Under the pieces are notes generated by a model. It searched no databases. It was not told the DNA's origin and saw nothing but the letters and a program-made list of their open reading frames with translations. This document shows, piece after piece, positions 2,976 to 15,181 of a DNA stretch of 64,000 nucleotides; the stretch's first letter is position 1; each line of letters begins with the position of its first letter. Origin of the DNA: an uncultured Clostridia bacterium (GTDB lineage: Bacteria; Bacillota; Clostridia; Oscillospirales; Acutalibacteraceae); assembly GCA_945874765.1 (NCBI GenBank), contig CAMCHQ010000002.1:1-64000 (forward strand). Reading direction: 5' to 3'. The position numbers and the translations under genes were made by a program.

Positions 2976-3398
2976 ATGGATAACAATGAAGTAGTAACAG
3001 AGGAAGTGGCAGCAGTTGTTGAAAATAATACAGGTATTGAAATAGAGCCTTTATTTGAGGAGCAGGTTGATTTTGATACATTCTCAAAGTCAGACTTCCG
3101 TGTTGTAAAGGTAAAAAATTGTGAGGCAGTACCTAAGAGTAAGAAGCTTCTTAGATTTACACTTGATGATGGAACTGAGAATGAGAGAACGATTCTTTCA
3201 GGAGTACATGCTTTTTATGAGCCAGAGGAACTTGTTGGAAAGACATTATTGGCAATCGTAAATCTTCCACCACGTTCTATGATGGGAATTGACTCTTGTG
3301 GTATGTTACTTTCAGCCATTCACAATGTAAATGGAGAAGAAAAGTTGAATCTTGTAATGTTAGACGATTCAATTCCGGCAGGTGCAAAGCTCTATTAA
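2976..3398 (+). CDS. EMAP/MetRS-C-type tRNA-binding domain protein
   Basis: A 140-residue protein with an acidic N-terminal tail and a C-terminal OB fold of the tRNA_bind family: FSKSDFRVVKVKNCEAVPKS, then LLRFTLDDG, ILSGVHAFYEPEELVGKTL and GMLLSA. The fold is like the C-terminal domain of methionyl-tRNA synthetase and CsaA and probably binds the tRNA elbow. As a free-standing gene it may act in trans with a synthetase or as a tRNA chaperone. I place the start at ATG 2976, seven bases or so after AAAGGAG; the earlier ATG at 2955 is part of that ribosome site. Codon use matches the 948-2614 genes, so it belongs to the same acquired block. Confidence 0.8.
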   Translation: MDNNEVVTEEVAAVVENNTGIEIEPLFEEQVDFDTFSKSDFRVVKVKNCEAVPKSKKLLRFTLDDGTENERTILSGVHAFYEPEELVGKTLLAIVNLPPRSMMGIDSCGMLLSAIHNVNGEEKLNLVMLDDSIPAGAKLY

Positions 3399-3449
3399 GA
3401 TGATGTAAAGATGTACCGTTTTACCGAATAGACGGGACGTACTTCATTT

Positions 3450-3508
3450 CCCGACAATGAAGCCTTTGGATAAGTAAAATCCGGTATTTATGTGGGGTTA
3501 CGAGCTTT
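3450..3508. repeat. diverged direct repeat, right copy (att-like)
   Basis: This is the partner of 263-330: CCCGACAATGAAG (3450-3462), then TATTTATGTGGGG, then TTTACCAAA-type motifs to about 3550. Between the island's last stop (3398) and the MFS gene (3768) there is no complete gene, only this repeat, the hairpin at 3576 and AT-rich sequence. Confidence 0.5.
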
Positions 3509-3575
3509 TTAATGTAAGTTCTACCAAAAGATTTACCAAAAGTGATTTGGTACGAACAGCAATACAGTAAAATTA

Positions 3576-3618
3576 AACTCTCGGAGAATGATAAAACATT
3601 TTCCGAGAGTTGTTTTTA
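3576..3618 (+). terminator. strong hairpin/terminator after right repeat
   Basis: AACTCTCGGA (3576-3585) pairs with TCCGAGAGTT (3602-3611), extended inward by AATG/CATT, and is followed by GTTTTTA. It may end transcription leaving the island, and it mirrors the hairpin at 430-461. Confidence 0.65.
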
Positions 3619-3767
3619 TACCTATTTACAACTACAAATCTGAAATTCGCACATTAGCAGATCAGTCTAATTTATGATGACAGATTACTTGTAAAACCGA
3701 TAAAATCAGCAATTTCATATATGCCGACAGCTACTTATGAATTGCCGCCTGCATTGTTCACGGTGTT

Positions 3768-4931
3768 ATGCAGGGTATACACGATAACTACGGCATTATG
3801 ATGAAAGGCTTGATTACGTACACGGGGATAGATTACGCTTCTATCAGCTTTTGCATAGGCGTAGGCGCTCTCGTATACGGCATCGCTCAACCGTTTTTGG
3901 GAATGCTGGCTTTGAGAAAATCGAATGTATTTGTTATGTTGCTCGGAATATTCTGCTGTGTTCTCGGATTGGCAGTTACACCGATGTGCACTAACACAAT
4001 AACGCTTTTAATATTTTTCGGTTTAGTGCTTCCTTTTGGTACAACGGGACTTTGCTTTGGTATTATTATGGGAGCAATAACACCCATTATCGGTGAAAAA
4101 AGAGCCGCCGCAGTTTCGGGTATCGTTCAGGCAAGTGCGGGTATAGGCGACGCATTGATGTCACCGGCATTGGATATGGCAATTTCAAAAGTTAATGTTT
4201 CGTTTGCCATGCGAATATTTACAATTCCTTTTTTAGCTATGATTCCCATTGCACTATGGATAAAATCGGTTAATAAAAGAAACGTACAGCAAGAATCGGA
4301 AATACAAGAAGATACTGAAAAAGTTTCACTTATTTCACTTTTGAAGTTTGCACTGCGTGACCGTGATTATAAATTACTTGTAATCAGCTTTGCGACATGC
4401 GGATTTAATATGTCTATAATTGAAAGCCATTTGTATTCGCAGTACATATCATACGGAATTAGCAGTGAAATTGCCTCATTAACATTAACCGTTTACGGAA
4501 TTGCAACGATGATAGGAGCAACAGGCACGGGATTTCTCGGCACAAAGTTTAAAATGAAAAATATTTTAGGCGGTGTTTATGCAATTCGTATGATTATATC
4601 GCTTGCGTTTTTGTTTGTTACAAAATCGACTGCGTTTGCATTTATAGCAACTGCGTTGTTGGGACTGTCCGGTGACGCAACCGTAGCGCCGACGTCGGGT
4701 ATTATAAGTAAAAAGTTCGGCTCAAAAAATATGGCTGTACTGTATGGTTTTACATTGATTGGGCATCAAGTAGGCGCTTTTTTAAGTGCTTATCTCGGCG
4801 GTTTGTTTGTTGAAAAAGGCTTGGGCTACGCACCGCTTTGGGCAATAAACTTTTGTCTTGCGGGCATTGCTTCGGCGGCAAGCTTTATGATTAAAAAAGA
4901 AGACGAAAAGAAAGGATATGCAAAGGTATAA
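3768..4931 (+). CDS. MFS transporter, 5' end damaged
   Basis: A 387-residue major facilitator protein with about 11-12 membrane segments and the loop helix between residues ~165 and 190, most like monocarboxylate/oxalate-type permeases. The substrate cannot be told. The ATG at 3768 has no ribosome site and falls inside transmembrane helix 1. The same frame upstream (3741-3767) reads IAACIVHGV, which continues the family pattern before MQGIHDNYGI, but is closed by TGA at 3738. The true N-terminus thus appears lost at the edge of the island scar, and the gene may be non-functional or start unconventionally. A GNAT gene follows two bases after the stop. Confidence 0.75.
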   Translation: MQGIHDNYGIMMKGLITYTGIDYASISFCIGVGALVYGIAQPFLGMLALRKSNVFVMLLGIFCCVLGLAVTPMCTNTITLLIFFGLVLPFGTTGLCFGIIMGAITPIIGEKRAAAVSGIVQASAGIGDALMSPALDMAISKVNVSFAMRIFTIPFLAMIPIALWIKSVNKRNVQQESEIQEDTEKVSLISLLKFALRDRDYKLLVISFATCGFNMSIIESHLYSQYISYGISSEIASLTLTVYGIATMIGATGTGFLGTKFKMKNILGGVYAIRMIISLAFLFVTKSTAFAFIATALLGLSGDATVAPTSGIISKKFGSKNMAVLYGFTLIGHQVGAFLSAYLGGLFVEKGLGYAPLWAINFCLAGIASAASFMIKKEDEKKGYAKV

Positions 4932-8100: not shown

Positions 8101-9762
8101 ATGAGATCAGATTTAATTAAAAAAGGTCCGTCAAGAGCACCTCACCGTTCTCTTTTGAGAGCACTCGGCGTTGACGAGCTTGAAATGAAAAGACCTTTTA
8201 TCGCAGTAGTTAATTCTAAGAGCGACTATATTCCGGGTCATATGCATCTTGATAAAATTGCCGAACAGGTTAAGGCAGGTATCAGAAATGCAGGCGGTGT
8301 ACCGTTTGAATTTAACACTATCGGTGTTTGCGACGGTATTGCTATGAACCATAAGGGTATGAAATATTCTCTTTGCTCAAGAGAACTTATTGCCGATTCA
8401 ATCGAGGTTATGCTTACTGCTCACCCTCTTGACGCAATTGTATTTATCCCTAACTGTGACAAGATTGTTCCGGGTATGCTTCTTGCCGCTTGCAGACTTA
8501 ATTTACCTTGTATCTTTATCAGCGGCGGTCCTATGCTTCCGGGTAAGAGCACCGAAACCACAAACCGTATCGGTCTTTCCGAGCAGTTTGAATATGTAGG
8601 CGCTAATGCCGTTGGCAAGATGAGTGATGAAAATCTTGAATCTTGTGCATTTACAGCTTGCCCTACTTGCGGTTCTTGCTCAGGTATGTATACAGCTAAC
8701 TCAATGAACTGTCTTACAGAGACAATCGGTATGTCACTTCCGGGTTCGGGTACTATTCCTGCTGTTATGAGTGAAAGACTTCGTCTTGCAAAGCAGGCAG
8801 GCGAGAGAGTAATGGACCTTCTTAAAGAGGACATTAAGCCGTCGGATATTATTACAGAGAAAGCTATTGAAAACGCTATGCGTACAGATATGGCTATCGG
8901 CTGTTCAACCAATACAATTTTACACCTTACTGCCATTGCTCACGCAGCAGGTCACGATATCGACCTTGCCCAGCTTGACGCTTACGGCAGAAAGACACCT
9001 CAAATTTGTAAGCTTAACCCTGCTTCATCTGTATTTATTACAGACCTCAACGATGTAGGCGGTATTCAGGCAGTTGTTAAGGAACTTGCAAGAGGCGGTA
9101 TGATTAATACAGACGCACTTACCGTAAACGGTACTGTTGCCGACAGAATTGCAAAAGCACCTGACGCTGACGGCGTTATCATTCGTAAGATTGAAGACCC
9201 GTTCTCTGCAGACGGCGGTATTGCTGTTCTTACAGGTAACCTTGCAAAGGACGGCGCAGTAGTTAAGAAGGGCGCTGTTGCACCTGAAATGATGCAGCAT
9301 AAAGGTCCTGCTAAGTGCTATAACAGTGAGGAAGAGGCTATTGCGGCTATTACAGGCGGCAAGGTTGTTGCAGGTGATGTAGTCGTTATTCGTTATGAAG
9401 GTCCTAAGGGCGGACCGGGTATGAGAGAAATGCTTTCTCCTACTTCCGCAATTATCGGTATGGGTCTCGGCTCATCTGTTGCACTTCTTACAGACGGACG
9501 TTTTTCAGGCGCTACAAGAGGTGCTTCAATCGGTCATATCAGTCCCGAAGCTGCAATGGGCGGAACTATTGCTCTTGTTGAGGACGGCGACGAGATTGAA
9601 ATTGATATCCCTGCACGTGTACTTAAAGTTAATGTTTCTGATGAAGTGTTAGCCGAAAGAAAGGCTAAGTGGCAGCCACCTGTTCAAAATCTTACAGGTT
9701 ATCTCAAGCGCTATGCTCAGCACGTTACAAGCGGTGCTCAGGGTGCTGTATTTGACGATTAA
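8101..9762 (+). CDS. ilvD: dihydroxy-acid dehydratase
   Basis: A 553-residue enzyme of valine, leucine and isoleucine synthesis. It dehydrates 2,3-dihydroxy-isovalerate and -methylvalerate to the 2-keto acids. Cluster and metal residues are present: Cys77 in GVCDGIAM, the NCDK motif at 118-121 and [10 protein letters not shown] at 187-196. The C-terminal GGxxxLxGNLAxxGAVVK and GPxGGPGMxEM blocks are also intact. Full family length. No other ilv or leu gene is near. The next gene, a degenerate sortase-like protein, starts 15 bases downstream and is probably co-transcribed, an unusual pairing of a metabolic gene with surface proteins. Confidence 0.97.
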
Positions 9763-9776
9763 TCGGAGCTTTATAT

Positions 9777-10436
9777 ATGGATAATAAGAATGAGAAGAGT
9801 AAAAAGAGACATTCTAACCGTCGAAAATCTCCTAATGATTTCGCAAAAAACGTAGCTATATTTGTTTGCGTTGAATTAATTGTTGTTGTGGGAGCAATTA
9901 TCGGCGTAAATAAAAGTGCCTGCGATGCGGTTCATAAGCTTGAAGCGGCTATGCCGAGAAGCGTAATGGATTTAACCGTAGAGCCTGCCGGCGACAAATA
10001 TGTGTCACTTAAAAGTGAAAAACTTGATTACGGCAGTTATGTTGCGGATGTCGTTGTTGAAAAAAGAGGTATCGAAGTGCCGGTTTTCTATGGCATTAAC
10101 CGTGCCTGCTTAAGATACGGCGCAGGTGTTTCGGGTGATGAAAAAGTAAGCGCTTTCAGTGATAATGAAAGCACTGCAATCGGCGGATATGATGAAACTT
10201 ATTTTAAGTCGCTTAAATACGTTCAAAGCGGCGACAAAGTAAAAGTCAAAACGGCGGATAAAACAATAAGCTATAAGGCAATCGATACCTTTATAGGTGA
10301 CGAGGGCGACAGCAAGGCTAAGAAATATAAAAACAACTTGATATTATACAGTATTTTCTCCGATTACGGTGAAAACGGCGGCAAGTGCTTTTATGTCATT
10401 TGCGAGAAAACGGGCGAGGAGGTAAATGCAAAATGA
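9777..10436 (+). CDS. catalytically degenerate sortase-like membrane protein
   Basis: 219 residues: a Lys/Arg-rich cytoplasmic tail, one membrane helix (27-44) and an extracellular domain that follows the sortase B/D pattern. It has IEVPVFYGINRACLRYGAG (strand and loop before the active site), AIGGYDETYFKSLKYVQSGD (the equivalent of GHxxTxFxxLxxLxxGD) and KTADKTISYKAID. At the catalytic positions His is Tyr138, the Cys of TLxTC falls on Ile193 in LILYSIF, and the Arg on about Lys203. So the fold seems kept but transpeptidation cannot occur as known. The TGA overlaps the ATG of the next gene (ATGA), which implies coupled translation and joint function, perhaps as a scaffold or substrate-binding pseudoenzyme. 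Sortase assignment is by pattern only. Confidence 0.7.
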   Translation: MDNKNEKSKKRHSNRRKSPNDFAKNVAIFVCVELIVVVGAIIGVNKSACDAVHKLEAAMPRSVMDLTVEPAGDKYVSLKSEKLDYGSYVADVVVEKRGIEVPVFYGINRACLRYGAGVSGDEKVSAFSDNESTAIGGYDETYFKSLKYVQSGDKVKVKTADKTISYKAIDTFIGDEGDSKAKKYKNNLILYSIFSDYGENGGKCFYVICEKTGEEVNAK

Positions 10437-11284
10437 GCAGAAAACTCCACGATTCCAGAAGCGATTTCAGAAGCAGAAATATTCTTGCATTTTGTCTTTT
10501 CGTAGTGCTTGGCATTTTAAGTGTTGCGTGCGTGACGAAAACAGTTGTTTTAAACGGCAACACGGTTCAAAATCAATTTACCGATTATAATGTTACGTCA
10601 GCCTTTAGGCAGGATTTAGTTGATTATACAAGCGACACCTTTATTAAAAACGGACTTGACAGCAGTAATATTTCAAATGTTATTACGCAGGGAAAGGCTG
10701 AAAAGATAATCGGCTCCTTTGCGGCGGGTCAGTTTAGGGCTAAAGCGGGTTATACTTCTAAATCCTACTCTACCGATATTGACGAACTTATAAATGACAT
10801 AAAATCGGAACTTGAGGCGCAAATAACCGCTTCGGGTTTTGAAAAAAATGAAAATGTCGAAAATGCCCAGCTTAAAAAAATAAGAGCTTTTATTGAAAAT
10901 TCTTTGAAACTTCCTAAAACAAAGCTTATTGAAACGGCTATGAATTTGGGAAAGGTTGCGGCTGATATTTTTCTTGCCGTTGCGATTTTCCTGACTGTCG
11001 TATTTGCTTCAATGCTTTATTTTACAGGCAATACTAAGTACAGAAGCGTCAGAAGTCTCGGTGCCGCATTTTGCGCCTCATCAATTGGGGACTTGATTGT
11101 TTCGTTAATTGCTGTTATAATTTTGAACGTAAAATCTATAGATATTTTTCCTGCATTTCTCAAAAGTGCACTTGATAATTATATTTATACCGCTGTCGGT
11201 GCAATTGCCGCTTGCGGTTTGGTGCTTCTTTTGATATCTTTGGTGCTTCTTGCAATAAGCTGGAAGCTTAAGCGTGAAAATTAA
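10433..11284 (+). CDS. uncharacterised four-helix membrane protein
   Basis: 283 residues, not a family that I recognise. Helix 1 (about 16-36) is followed by an extracellular, mostly helical region of ~130 residues. Three helices follow near the C-terminus (IFLAVAIFLTVVFASMLYF, IGDLIVSLIAVIILNV, and the segment around AVGAIAACGLVLLLISLVLL). It starts at ATG 10433, overlapping the stop of the pseudo-sortase gene and preceded by GAGGAGG. A longer frame back to 10385 lies inside that gene and is not needed. An ABC ATPase follows after 32 bases. The helix number is too low for a standard Wzm/TagG permease, but the protein could still be the membrane partner of that ATPase. Confidence 0.72.
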   Translation: MSRKLHDSRSDFRSRNILAFCLFVVLGILSVACVTKTVVLNGNTVQNQFTDYNVTSAFRQDLVDYTSDTFIKNGLDSSNISNVITQGKAEKIIGSFAAGQFRAKAGYTSKSYSTDIDELINDIKSELEAQITASGFEKNENVENAQLKKIRAFIENSLKLPKTKLIETAMNLGKVAADIFLAVAIFLTVVFASMLYFTGNTKYRSVRSLGAAFCASSIGDLIVSLIAVIILNVKSIDIFPAFLKSALDNYIYTAVGAIAACGLVLLLISLVLLAISWKLKREN

Positions 11285-11316: not shown

Positions 11317-12081
11317 ATGGATAATGATATTGCCATTAACGTAGAAAACGTTACAATGTCGTTTATTCTTAATAAAGAAAAGGTGGACAACCTTAAAGAA
11401 TACGCTATTAAGCTTATTACAGGAAAGCTTGAATATAATAAGTTTGATGCCTTAAAGGATATTTCATTTAAGGTTAAAAAGGGAGAGCATCTTGCAATTA
11501 TGGGTCTTAACGGTGCCGGCAAGAGTACCCTTTTAAAAACAATTGTCGGTGTTTATAAGCCGACTAAGGGCAAGATTGAAAAGCAAGGCGTTATTGCTCC
11601 TCTTCTTGAACTCGGTGCAGGTTTTGACGGCAACTATTCGGGTAGGGAAAATATTTTCCTTTACGGCGCTATTTTAGGCTATTCAAGAGATTTCATTCAG
11701 TCTAAGTATGATGAAATTGTTGAATTTTCCGAACTCGGCGACTTTATCGAAGTACCTGTTAAAAACTATTCAAGCGGTATGAGAGCACGTCTCGGTTTCT
11801 CAATTGCAACTGCTGTTGAGCCGGATGTTCTTATTCTTGATGAGGTTTTGTCTGTCGGCGACGCAGGATTCAGAAAGAAAAGTCTTGCCAAGGTTCAGTC
11901 TCTTTTTGAAAGCGGCGTAACCGTTCTTTTCGTATCTCACAGTATTGACCAGGTTTTGGCTATCTGCGATACGGCAATTCTTCTTGACCACGGTAAGATT
12001 ATTTCTCAAGGCCCTGTTGAAGAAGTTACAAAAGTCTATGAAGAAAAGGTATCTCACCCAAAGAAAAAGAAAAAACTTTAA
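11317..12081 (+). CDS. Wzt/TagH-type ABC transporter ATPase
   Basis: A 254-residue nucleotide-binding protein of the polysaccharide/teichoic-acid export group. Visible are Walker A GLNGAGKST (63-71), the family-typical LLELGAGFDGNYSGRENI stretch, signature YSSGMRARLGF, Walker B VLILDEVLSVGD and switch His in FVSHS. TagH and Wzt proteins normally pair with a six-helix ABC-2 permease (TagG/Wzm). None is encoded here; the only membrane partner in the operon is the four-helix protein upstream. There is no C-terminal carbohydrate-binding extension. A strong terminator ends the unit. Confidence 0.88.
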   Translation: MDNDIAINVENVTMSFILNKEKVDNLKEYAIKLITGKLEYNKFDALKDISFKVKKGEHLAIMGLNGAGKSTLLKTIVGVYKPTKGKIEKQGVIAPLLELGAGFDGNYSGRENIFLYGAILGYSRDFIQSKYDEIVEFSELGDFIEVPVKNYSSGMRARLGFSIATAVEPDVLILDEVLSVGDAGFRKKSLAKVQSLFESGVTVLFVSHSIDQVLAICDTAILLDHGKIISQGPVEEVTKVYEEKVSHPKKKKKL

Positions 12082-12283: not shown

Positions 12284-15181
12284 ATGAAACGACTTATTTG
12301 TACGGTCTTGGCTTTTGTAATTTTTTTCGGCATCTGTGGGATAATTGCGCCCGAAGTAAATAATATTTATAAGCTTGAAGAAGCTGCTTCATTTGCCGAA
12401 CAGGTTGATACTCTTGTTAAACATTACGAAAGCAGGCAAGATACTCAAAACAGACTTATTGTAAATTCAAATAAAATTAAGGAAAGCTATGGTGCAGTTA
12501 AGGTGATTAAGGCGCATGGCTTTCAAGTTATGCAATTTGACAGTTATGAAAAAGCCGAAAATGCAAAAAGCAGCATTGAAAAGCTCGGCATTGCGTGCGA
12601 CAGGGACGATTTCGCATACGTTCAGGCAGTGAAAAAGGCAAAAAGTACTAAGGACTTGTGGGCGTCGCAAACAACTCAGTCCGACGTTACAATGCAATAT
12701 CTTGCCTCAACAGGAAAGAAATTTAACGATGTAACCGTTGCCGTTATTGATACGGGTATTAACGATAAGCACGAAGCTTTTGAGGGCAGATTGATTGAGT
12801 GTAATAAAAATTTCAGCTCCTCGGGAACTATGAACAGCTCGTTTGATGACAGCGGTCACGGTACTAATGTTGCAGGCGTAATCGCTTTAAATACACTTGA
12901 TAACGTTAAAATAAAGCCGTATAAAACATTTGATAATGAGGGCAAGTGCACCAATTCGCAAATTATTGCAACGCTTAATTATATTTTGAGTGAAAAGAAA
13001 TTGCCGGATATTATTAATATGAGCTTTTCCGTTCAATCAATTACAAGCAGCGTCACACGTGATTCCCTTACACGTAATCTTATTTCAAAGGGTGTTACAA
13101 TTGTTACTTCGGCAGGTAATAAGGGCGTCAATGCAAAATATTATTATCCTGCAAATATCAGTGAGGTAATAACCGTTTCCGCTTCGGATAAAAAGAATGA
13201 AAAGGCTGATTTTTCAAATTACGGCAAATGTATTGATATTGCCGCTCCGGGTACGGGTGTTTATACTACGGAACTTGACGGTACATATTCTTATGAAAAC
13301 GGAACATCTTTTTCCGCTCCTTTTGTATCTTCTGCCGCCGCTACACTTATAATGCAGAAAAGCGGTCTTAGCTGTGCCGATGTGGAAAAGGCAATATGTG
13401 ACGAAGCTGTGCCGGTATATATCGAGAATTTTCAGGTTGAATGGTGCGGTGCGGGAATAGTTAATTTTTCAGGTCTTATATGCGGTGAAAAAGCGTCTGC
13501 CCCGTCATTCGGCACTCCGCAGGGAAAATACAACGAACCGTTTAAACTTGAAATCAAAGGCGACAGTAACGAAAAAATTATGTATACAACCGATAATACC
13601 GTCCCTACATCCAAAAACGGATTGGAATATACTAAACCTATTGATATTGACAAAAGTACACATATTATCGCTGTCGCATATGACGATATGAAAAAGAGCA
13701 AATATGTCGCTTCAACCTATGAACTTGTTTATGAAGGAAGCGACGACGATTTTGACATTACGCAAGACGGTGTAATTACAAGCTATAACGGTGATAAAAC
13801 GAGTATAACTGTTCCGTCGCAGATAGACGGCATAACTGTCACGGCTATAGGCGATAACGTCTTTAACGGCTCGGATATAAAAAATATCACTTTACCTTAT
13901 TCCGTAACGTCAATAGGCGTCAGTGCTTTTGCAGACAGTAAAATTTCTTCGATTTCAGGTAAATGTGTAACAACGCTTGATAACGGCGCATTTGAAAATT
14001 GTTCGTCACTTGTTACGCTTGATACTCCTGCGATTGAATATATAGGCAACAGATGCTTTAAAAATTGCAATAAGCTTACAAGTATAGGCTTCAGCCAAAA
14101 TGTAAAAGAAATCGGCGTCGGCGCATTTGCGTTTACGGGTCTTTCAACGGCTGATTTTCCGAATGCAAGCATAGGCTCTTCCACTTTTGAGGGCAGTAAC
14201 GTTGTTGTAGCTAAAATCAACAAGGCGGAAAATTTAGAGCGTACATTCTGCGAATGTGAACTTTTAAGCAGTCTTACTGCTCCTAATTTGAAAAATATCG
14301 GTAATTTTTCGTTTTATAATTGTAAATCACTCGGCAATATCAATTTGAATAACGTTCAAAGCGTTTCAAATTATGCCTTTGCAAATTCCGGAATCAAAAC
14401 TGCCGATTTGCCTAATTGCACTTTTCTCGGCAATGCGGTATTCAATAAATGCGATGATTTGGTGAACGTTAATATCCCTTTGGTTACAAAAATTATGCCT
14501 GAGGAATTTAATTATTGCACTTCGCTTAAAAAAATCAATATGCCTAACGTAGAGGCGTTTGACGATATATCTAAAGAATATTTTACCGACTGTATTGCAC
14601 TTGAAGGATTGTATTTGCCGAAAAGCGTGAATTTGCCCTCGATTTCGTGGTCGTCCTCTGTGCAAAGCAGTATGCTGTTCGGTAAAAAAGCCCAGCTTTC
14701 GTATATCTTTGCACCAAAAGCTTCAAAAGTTTCAAACAGTGAGGATTTGCCGTTTATGTTTAAATGCTCAAAACTTAAATATGCATTTTTGAAAAGCGCA
14801 AAATCACTCGATTATATTGATAATGTTGACGGCTGCGTTTTGTATTTGGGTTCAAAAGCGGCAAAACTCCCCGATAATCCCGACTGTAAGAAAATAACCG
14901 TTATTGCTCCGAATTCAAGCTATGCTCTCAATTGGGCAAAGAAAAACGGTTTGAATTATGTTGAAAGCTCGGCTTTATCGTGCGTATCAATTTCGTCAAA
15001 GGAAATCGGATATGAGGCTTTGGGTGATAGCTATACTCTGCCGTCAAATTTTGTTAAATCGCTTTGGGATGTGAGCCTTGTTAATACAAGCAAAAGTGAT
15101 GAAACCGTTTCGGCACTTCTCGATTTTAATAATGACGATACTGTTAATGCAAAGGATTATGCAATTATCAATAAGCAATAA
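12284..15181 (+). CDS. secreted subtilase with BspA-type repeats and a dockerin-like end
   Basis: A 965-residue exported protein. A signal peptide or anchor (1-22) precedes a ~100-residue pro-region. The S8 peptidase (~145-395) has Asp156 in AVIDTGIND, His192 in DSGHGTNVAG, oxyanion Asn279 in TSAGNKG and Ser342 in GTSFSAP. Next is a chitobiase-type CHB_HEX_C_1 module (~410-485; EKIMYTTDNTVPTSKNG). About 500-900 is a run of BspA-like leucine-rich repeats (NVFNGSDIKNITLPYSVTSI and relatives). The end, LDFNNDDTVNAKDYAIINK, is one calcium-binding loop of a dockerin. Real dockerins have two, so cohesin binding is doubtful. It probably processes proteins at the cell surface. It is separated from the upstream operon by a terminator and has its own promoter. 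Confidence 0.9.
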   Translation: MKRLICTVLAFVIFFGICGIIAPEVNNIYKLEEAASFAEQVDTLVKHYESRQDTQNRLIVNSNKIKESYGAVKVIKAHGFQVMQFDSYEKAENAKSSIEKLGIACDRDDFAYVQAVKKAKSTKDLWASQTTQSDVTMQYLASTGKKFNDVTVAVIDTGINDKHEAFEGRLIECNKNFSSSGTMNSSFDDSGHGTNVAGVIALNTLDNVKIKPYKTFDNEGKCTNSQIIATLNYILSEKKLPDIINMSFSVQSITSSVTRDSLTRNLISKGVTIVTSAGNKGVNAKYYYPANISEVITVSASDKKNEKADFSNYGKCIDIAAPGTGVYTTELDGTYSYENGTSFSAPFVSSAAATLIMQKSGLSCADVEKAICDEAVPVYIENFQVEWCGAGIVNFSGLICGEKASAPSFGTPQGKYNEPFKLEIKGDSNEKIMYTTDNTVPTSKNGLEYTKPIDIDKSTHIIAVAYDDMKKSKYVASTYELVYEGSDDDFDITQDGVITSYNGDKTSITVPSQIDGITVTAIGDNVFNGSDIKNITLPYSVTSIGVSAFADSKISSISGKCVTTLDNGAFENCSSLVTLDTPAIEYIGNRCFKNCNKLTSIGFSQNVKEIGVGAFAFTGLSTADFPNASIGSSTFEGSNVVVAKINKAENLERTFCECELLSSLTAPNLKNIGNFSFYNCKSLGNINLNNVQSVSNYAFANSGIKTADLPNCTFLGNAVFNKCDDLVNVNIPLVTKIMPEEFNYCTSLKKINMPNVEAFDDISKEYFTDCIALEGLYLPKSVNLPSISWSSSVQSSMLFGKKAQLSYIFAPKASKVSNSEDLPFMFKCSKLKYAFLKSAKSLDYIDNVDGCVLYLGSKAAKLPDNPDCKKITVIAPNSSYALNWAKKNGLNYVESSALSCVSISSKEIGYEALGDSYTLPSNFVKSLWDVSLVNTSKSDETVSALLDFNNDDTVNAKDYAIINKQ

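Follow-up and report, generated by a model that had tools for sequence, protein, structure and literature searches.

The stretch of DNA considered in this report, referred to below as the window, comprises 64,000 nucleotides (positions 1 to 64,000 of contig CAMCHQ010000002.1) from an uncultured bacterium of the Acutalibacteraceae, whose assembled genome amounts to 2.27 Mb in 31 contigs. Among its genes is an ORF, designated here as psA, that begins with ATG, contains no internal stop codons and encodes a membrane-anchored protein related to the sortases, i.e. the enzymes that attach proteins to the cell wall. The TGA stop codon of psA shares the tetranucleotide ATGA (10433-10436) with the ATG start codon of the next gene, which encodes a membrane protein that we designate MP. 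By virtue of this overlap the two genes can be translationally coupled, in keeping with the description of psA in an earlier note on this DNA as an intact gene coupled to its neighbour. Hydropathy analysis of MP predicts an N-terminal transmembrane segment, an extracellular region of ~125 residues (approximately residues 43-167) and three C-terminal transmembrane segments, for a total of 4. The features of the locus are listed in Table 1. Further along the same strand (12284-15181, +), the window encodes a fusion of a subtilisin-like S8 protease with BspA-type leucine-rich repeats, with a C-terminal tail that appears dockerin-like by eye.

Table 1. Genes, residue positions and conserved motif of the psA locus (window coordinates)
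Feature	Position	Strand	Description or basis
ilvD, upstream neighbour (context)	8101..9762	+	PF00920/PF24877; separated from psA by 14 nt
psA, catalytically dead class-D-like sortase	9777..10436	+	219 aa; N-terminal transmembrane segment ~20-49 (hydropathy), extracellular sortase domain
psA-conserved motif N108-R109-x-[S/C]111-x-R113	10098..10115	+	Column counts, 51 psA vs 48 active sortases
Tyr138 at catalytic His site	10188..10190	+	Alignment with 48 active sortases; AlphaFold2 strand 133-138
Ile193 at catalytic Cys site	10353..10355	+	Alignment with 48 active sortases; AlphaFold2 strand 187-193
Cys204 at catalytic Arg site	10386..10388	+	Alignment with 48 active sortases; AlphaFold2 strand 203-216
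MP, partner membrane protein	10433..11284	+	283 aa; ATG overlaps psA stop; no Pfam family
ABC ATPase, TagH/Wzt type	11317..12081	+	PF00005 and NCBIfam TagH/Wzt matches; next gene after MP

The psA protein scores 28.5 bits against the Pfam family Sortase (PF04203, peptidase family C60), which is above the curated cut-off of 26.6, so that automatic annotation may label such proteins as sortases. Its best match in NCBIfam is the class D sortase model NF033746 (E 3.3e-9), at 36.7 bits and short of the curated cut-off of 165, which is likewise not reached by the active relative L128 (94.0 bits). Comparison of profiles with hhalign matched psA to active sortases at E 1.5e-35 over 206 columns, and sortases of solved structure also match the psA profile, the best of them being 4d70 (E 7.5e-12). 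An AlphaFold2 model of psA built from 11 sequences (mean pLDDT 77.7 and pTM 0.63 overall) has pLDDT values of 79 to 93 in the 10-residue blocks from residue 71 onward, except for a value of 66 for residues 121-130, and contains strands at residues 88-94, 99-105, 116-118, 133-138, 154-159, 162-175, 187-193 and 203-216. A Foldseek search of the PDB with this model returned 133 matches at E <=0.001 (best E 3.5e-11), the best 50 of which were sortases throughout, with target-normalised TM <=0.79. On the strength of the model, psA is predicted to keep the sortase beta-barrel. The sortase-type extracellular domain proposed in the earlier note is thus upheld by the PF04203 score, the predicted barrel and the Foldseek matches together, and the structural check suggested there yielded the very barrel whose absence had been named as evidence against the proposal.

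The catalytic positions of psA were assigned by aligning it with 48 active sortases that are linked to an MP and that carry His, Cys and Arg in all 48 cases. The alignment places Tyr138 at the His site and Ile193 at the Cys site, both as originally proposed, and Cys204 at the Arg site, where the original assignment, to approximately the adjoining Lys203, was one residue off. In the model, Tyr138 closes strand 133-138, Ile193 closes strand 187-193 and Cys204 lies near the start of the last strand, in agreement with the catalytic positions of Clostridium perfringens SrtD, which, according to passages of the published account (PMC4498605), has its Cys in beta7, its Arg in beta8 and its His in the loop after a strand.

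A single-sequence search detected psA in 51 of 80 genomes of the same genus, the window's included, and 48 of these same-genus proteins were aligned with the window protein, to which they are 18-39% identical. Most of the named relatives that carry psA are assemblies from metagenomes, under the labels Clostridia, Eubacterium or Ruminococcaceae, and the isolate names of some suggest animals such as red deer and rabbit. The catalytic His and Cys are absent from all 51 proteins, and their loss in the window copy is therefore not a chance occurrence. Since the Arg is missing in 47 of the 51 and retained in 4, the earlier statement that all three residues were consistently lost holds for His and Cys and is slightly too strong for Arg. 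Nor are Tyr, Ile and Lys, whose conservation the earlier note had proposed to examine, conserved at these sites: there are 33 Tyr, 7 Asp, 4 Asn, 3 Glu, 2 Phe, 1 Cys and 1 Ile at the His site, 12 Ile, 8 Asp and 7 Ala plus ten further residue types at the Cys site, and 17 Lys, 7 Cys, 6 Tyr, 4 Arg and others at the Arg site. As judged from these columns, the signal in psA is the loss of catalytic residues and not their fixed replacement by others.

Conservation is found elsewhere in the protein. G106 and Y166 are invariant in psA, and V52, D65, N108, R109, S111, G115, G117, F143, G152, D153, L188 and A209 are conserved at >=90%, with no His or Cys reaching 90% anywhere in the psA alignment (His53, which lies beside the membrane, is at 84%). 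The positions of the motif listed in Table 1 reach N 94%, R 98%, S 92% and R 88% in psA and are not conserved in the active sortases, the window protein having Cys at position 111. Because N108, R109 and S111 are conserved specifically in psA, the constraint on this protein has shifted and not merely vanished.

MP lies directly downstream of psA in all 51 loci, and in most the two genes overlap or are a few bases apart, with a median gap of -1 nt when the longest ORF starts are used. The earlier note had asked whether psA always precedes the same membrane protein, and had regarded close homologues with an intact triad and no such linkage as contrary evidence; within the genus the linkage is without exception, and all 51 copies are devoid of His and Cys. 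The window MP has no match in Pfam at E 0.1, and none of five MP proteins scanned from active operons scored above a curated family cut-off. We rejected the assignment of MP to a known Pfam family because the matches among 41 MP members were scattered (<=4 members per family in the best 25 of 125 families matched); DUF1461/Lit, considered as a candidate, was absent among these best 25. Two loci (L112 and L121) in which the ORFs downstream of the sortase are unrelated to MP were excluded from the counts and from the alignment used for the MP genome search.

The genes that flank the psA-MP pair are also largely constant. The TagH/Wzt-type ATPase follows MP in 49 of 49 psA loci that have >=300 nt of sequence past MP, and ilvD precedes psA in 43 of 48 loci with >=200 nt of upstream sequence. 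In ten loci with no recognisable psA or MP, ilvD is followed directly by the ATPase (~78-87% identical to the window's), an arrangement that we read from the gene order as the empty site for psA-MP. The empty sites, together with the psB loci described below that lack the ATPase, argue that the neighbourhood of psA-MP has been inherited. No permease is encoded beside the ATPase in the window; its relatives in other Clostridia have an apparent permease gene directly upstream (L171, L185 and L188). The window's genome has a match to an ABC2 permease on contig C7.

In other genera of the family, homologues of MP occur in operons with the gene order X - sortase - MP, in which X is a secreted protein and the sortase is class-D-like and active, with motifs such as GHNNTYF and LYTCYPF, plus Arg. 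The MP proteins of the catalytically dead and the active operons are homologous to each other (hhalign E 3.1e-33). X proteins are mostly 170-240 aa long and carry a C-terminal sorting signal, then a hydrophobic segment and basic residues at the very end. The signal contains T-G in 12 of 14 aligned proteins, usually as I/V/L-K-x-T-G, and takes the form LPFTG in two loci of other orders (L337 and L338). Based on its position and its sorting signal, X is probably the substrate of the adjacent sortase. None of six X proteins scanned against Pfam and NCBIfam scored above a family cut-off, and a candidate domain shared by X and MP (hhalign probability 33, E 0.00046, 59 columns) was not accepted as homology. 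The window's own genome apparently keeps an ordinary pair of sortase and substrate as well, consisting of a canonical sortase (L003) and an adjoining secreted protein (L291 1489-3052, contig C3) that has SPATG, a run of hydrophobic residues and a tail rich in lysine; two further canonical sortases (L001 and L002) are encoded in this genome.

The distribution of X, MP and the catalytic residues was examined in 159 sortase-like proteins, a set that omits loci L151-L230 and the window copy as duplicates (L004 representing the window) and proteins scoring <20 bits, including L002. X, MP and intact His and Cys occur together in 48 of the 159, with the Arg kept in all 48 as well; in 101, MP is present and X is absent along with both His and Cys; the remaining 10 keep the residues and lack both X and MP; and all other combinations number zero. 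Relatives that are linked to an MP and retain His and Cys do exist in other genera, and all 48 examined have X as well. The 101 dead proteins consist of 51 psA, 46 psB-like and 4 others (L126, L127, L246 and L250), each with an MP next to it. X is found upstream of psA in 0 of 51 loci. A profile of X detects matches at E <=1e-10 in 52 of 297 family genomes, whereas X goes undetected in the 80 same-genus genomes, where the profile yields 27 short N-terminal matches, all <=25 bits and none extending past position 95 of the 184 in the profile.

As the 159 loci were found through sortase profiles and were partly hand-picked, a second search was begun from MP, the loci retrieved in this later phase (L311-L346, of which L330 repeats L244) lying outside the 159. 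The profile of active-operon MP proteins found matches in 33 of 297 genomes across the order. Examination of 16 of the 20 matches from other families revealed the arrangement X - sortase (with His and Cys by eye) - MP in 14, the X profile match being weak in two of these (L311 and L320); of the two exceptions, L317 lies at the edge of a contig and L326 is a weak match to MP with no sortase. The operon is present in three of four further loci from the window's family, one of the three being a repeat of L244, and absent from the fourth, L327. The latter encodes an N-terminally shortened MP (3239-3883, +) with neither sortase nor X, and is probably an operon relic. When MP loci were sought across the class, the operon was present in 4 of the 10 examined, and the six others were one contig end, L341 and four weaker matches. 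L341 (3389-4252, +; 84.7 bits), located near housekeeping genes of a distant genome, encodes a clear MP-like protein with no recognisable sortase, and L344 (755-1633, -) encodes an MP-like protein, again with no recognisable sortase, in a distant genome of the class.

The psA gene has a diverged paralogue, psB, which a psA profile search also detected in the window's genome. The two proteins are homologous (hhalign E 2.6e-22, 190 columns), as are their respective MP partners, MP-A and MP-B (E 1.2e-18, 271 columns). In the window's genome psB forms a second dead sortase/MP pair (L103 2276-3722, -, contig C24), and in several genomes the psB operon has the composition MP - cytosolic protein - psB - MP, both examples of the cytosolic protein that were scanned being matches to DUF7674. 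MP matches occur in 60 of the 80 same-genus genomes, some of which have four or five, fragments included. The psA-MP pair is dispensable, with the qualification that many of the assemblies are incomplete: at E 0.001, MP is not matched in 20 of the 80 genomes, and the matches in a further two are all weak and partial. One psA (G027) is apparently interrupted by a stop codon near its start, MP is split in G027 and also in G025, and a stop lies within a small number of MP copies of the psB type (G066, G048 and G045).

Trees were constructed from 96 of the 149 MP-linked pairs, after removal of five active rows by hand, omission of psA proteins of <=195 aa and random thinning of the psA and psB-type rows; they are modestly supported and include some long branches. 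Built from 96 rows with no use of sortase residues, the MP tree unites psA, psB, L126, L127 and L270 as a single clade (SH-aLRT 83, not starred), supports psA with L126 and L127 at 99, and places L246 and L250 elsewhere with weak support. This tree requires two changes, as does a sortase tree in which the catalytic columns were masked. When all dead rows were constrained to a single clade the likelihood rose, and the constraint was not rejected (p-AU 0.67). On these trees the catalytic residues would have been lost once or twice, and the disappearance of X and that of the residues may have been a single event, so that the 101 dead proteins, set against 48 active ones, are not independent observations. 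Given the presence of the triad in other sortases, we infer that its loss is derived. The presence of ilvD upstream of the psA-type genes of L126 and L127 suggests that the psA site is old. The dead sortases of L246 (2208-3011, -) and L250 (1941-2777, +), both from genus g105 and both accompanied by an MP, carry Tyr in place of the His and Asp in place of the Cys, and possibly represent an independent loss.

The dead sortase/MP pairs are under purifying selection. In close unsaturated dead pairs, dN/dS ranges from 0.04 to 0.36 for the sortase and from 0.05 to 0.31 for MP, and active pairs fall in the same range; these are simple Nei-Gojobori estimates for pairs with a normalised score >0.55, in which saturated pairs were marked and synonymous sites are often near saturation. 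The ratio of sortase to MP divergence, determined for disjoint pairs with a normalised score >0.30 and an identity of <=98.5%, has a median of 0.98 in 36 dead pairs versus 0.69 in 21 active ones (Mann-Whitney p 5e-8). A dead sortase that diverges as fast as its MP is what would be expected if catalytic constraint has been lost and a function retained.

These measurements bear on the possibility that psA is a pseudogene in decay, or a genetic passenger, that persists solely through the coupling of its stop codon to the translation of MP. Such a history would account for the relatively faster divergence of the dead sortases and for the apparent interruption of 1 of the 51 psA genes, but it is weakened already by the selection test, in which dead pairs remain within the active range, and it fits poorly with a sortase fold that is predicted to be retained, with the new conservation of N108, R109 and S111, and with a pair that has been duplicated and persists at several sites. 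We consider it the least probable of the explanations discussed here. It is also very improbable that psA has acquired a new enzymatic activity based on catalytic residues at other positions. The fold and the region of the groove are kept and the serine at 111 is highly conserved, yet the window protein has Cys in its place, psA has no His or Cys at the 90% level (His53 being located beside the membrane), and the residues at the former His and Cys sites are highly variable.

A further alternative is that psA and MP take part in the export of wall polysaccharide, as a regulator or an extracellular subunit that works with the TagH/Wzt-type ATPase. The order psA-MP-ATPase is unbroken in the 49 loci that could be scored, including five in which ilvD was not found upstream, and L126, which belongs to another genus, likewise combines ilvD and a psA-type gene with MP and the ATPase; a link between psA-MP and the adjacent polysaccharide-exporter-type ATPase might be surmised from this adjacency. 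The ATPase, however, follows ilvD directly in the ten empty sites and is absent at E 1e-20 from 97 of 98 other MP loci, psB included, many of which have short flanks. The typical ABC2 permease encoded elsewhere in the genome also provides the ATPase with an ordinary candidate partner, and we regard this explanation as unlikely.

The interpretation that we consider probable is that psA is a sortase pseudoenzyme that originated in an X - sortase - MP operon and now serves, together with MP, as a non-catalytic extracellular subunit. Its ancestor would have been an active class-D-like sortase encoded between a secreted X with a C-terminal sorting signal and an MP with four transmembrane segments. 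X and the His and Cys residues (and mostly the Arg as well) would have been lost in the lineage leading to the window's genus and a few other genera of the family, and the sortase domain and MP would have stayed together and been duplicated as a pair, giving rise to psA-MP and psB-MP. A complex of the sortase domain with MP might already have been present in the active operon, in a role independent of X and of catalysis. The contribution of psA might be a membrane-anchored binding face directed toward the extracellular region of MP, or toward a ligand in the old substrate groove; the groove itself is a possible site for such a face, in that conserved residues specific to psA would adjoin the glycine-rich G115-x-G117 there. 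The earlier note had envisaged a pseudoenzyme selected for binding or scaffolding, of which the pseudoenzyme part is supported by the present analysis and the binding or scaffolding is a role that we infer. More tentatively, and at somewhat less than an even chance in our estimation, the sortase might, once its substrate was gone, have become a subunit without catalytic function in a membrane receptor or scaffold, constituting with MP a self-standing two-component module whose duplication gave a small set of paralogous complexes.

Among known systems, psA resembles the class D sortases (NF033746 / SrtD NF058671; C. perfringens SrtD, PDB 4d70, described in passages of PMC4498605) in its barrel, its profile and the strands that bear the Cys and Arg sites, but differs from them in having no catalytic His, Cys or Arg, a score below the curated class D cut-off, no adjacent X, and a linkage to MP. 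A second comparison is to the active sortases of the X - sortase - MP operons (such as L128, L140 and L238), which are full-length homologues of psA with a homologous MP directly downstream, but which have both the His-Cys-Arg triad and an upstream X where psA has neither. A parallel outside the sortases is provided by the iRhoms, inactive rhomboid proteases described as pseudoenzymes (PMC6451368), which are likewise membrane proteins of a protease fold kept for another role after the loss of catalytic residues; unlike psA they have an unrelated fold, and it is the psA operon that displays a partner gene and a lost substrate-like gene. In open-licence PubMed Central, as covered by titles, the beginnings of abstracts and some passages, we found no report of a natural sortase pseudoenzyme. 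Two uses of phrases of the "pseudosortase" type in the portions of the literature checked refer to a cleavage motif and to a deliberately mutated sortase, respectively, and the parts of the open-licence literature seen on class D sortase operons, on the sortases of these bacterial families and on accessory membrane proteins contained nothing similar.

Sortases have been studied as enzymes. psA is probably a pseudoenzyme built on the sortase fold; its membrane partner is conserved and its active relatives can be recognised. Its case displays both a state before the loss of catalysis (X, active sortase and MP) and a state after it, in which the pair has been kept and multiplied. The prediction that follows is that MP is a true partner of the sortase in the active operons as well. 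If the receptor or scaffold module exists as envisaged above, the MP of those operons would be a dedicated physical partner of the sortase, an accessory subunit new to knowledge. psA may thus be regarded as a natural experiment on the roles that the sortase fold can have besides catalysis.
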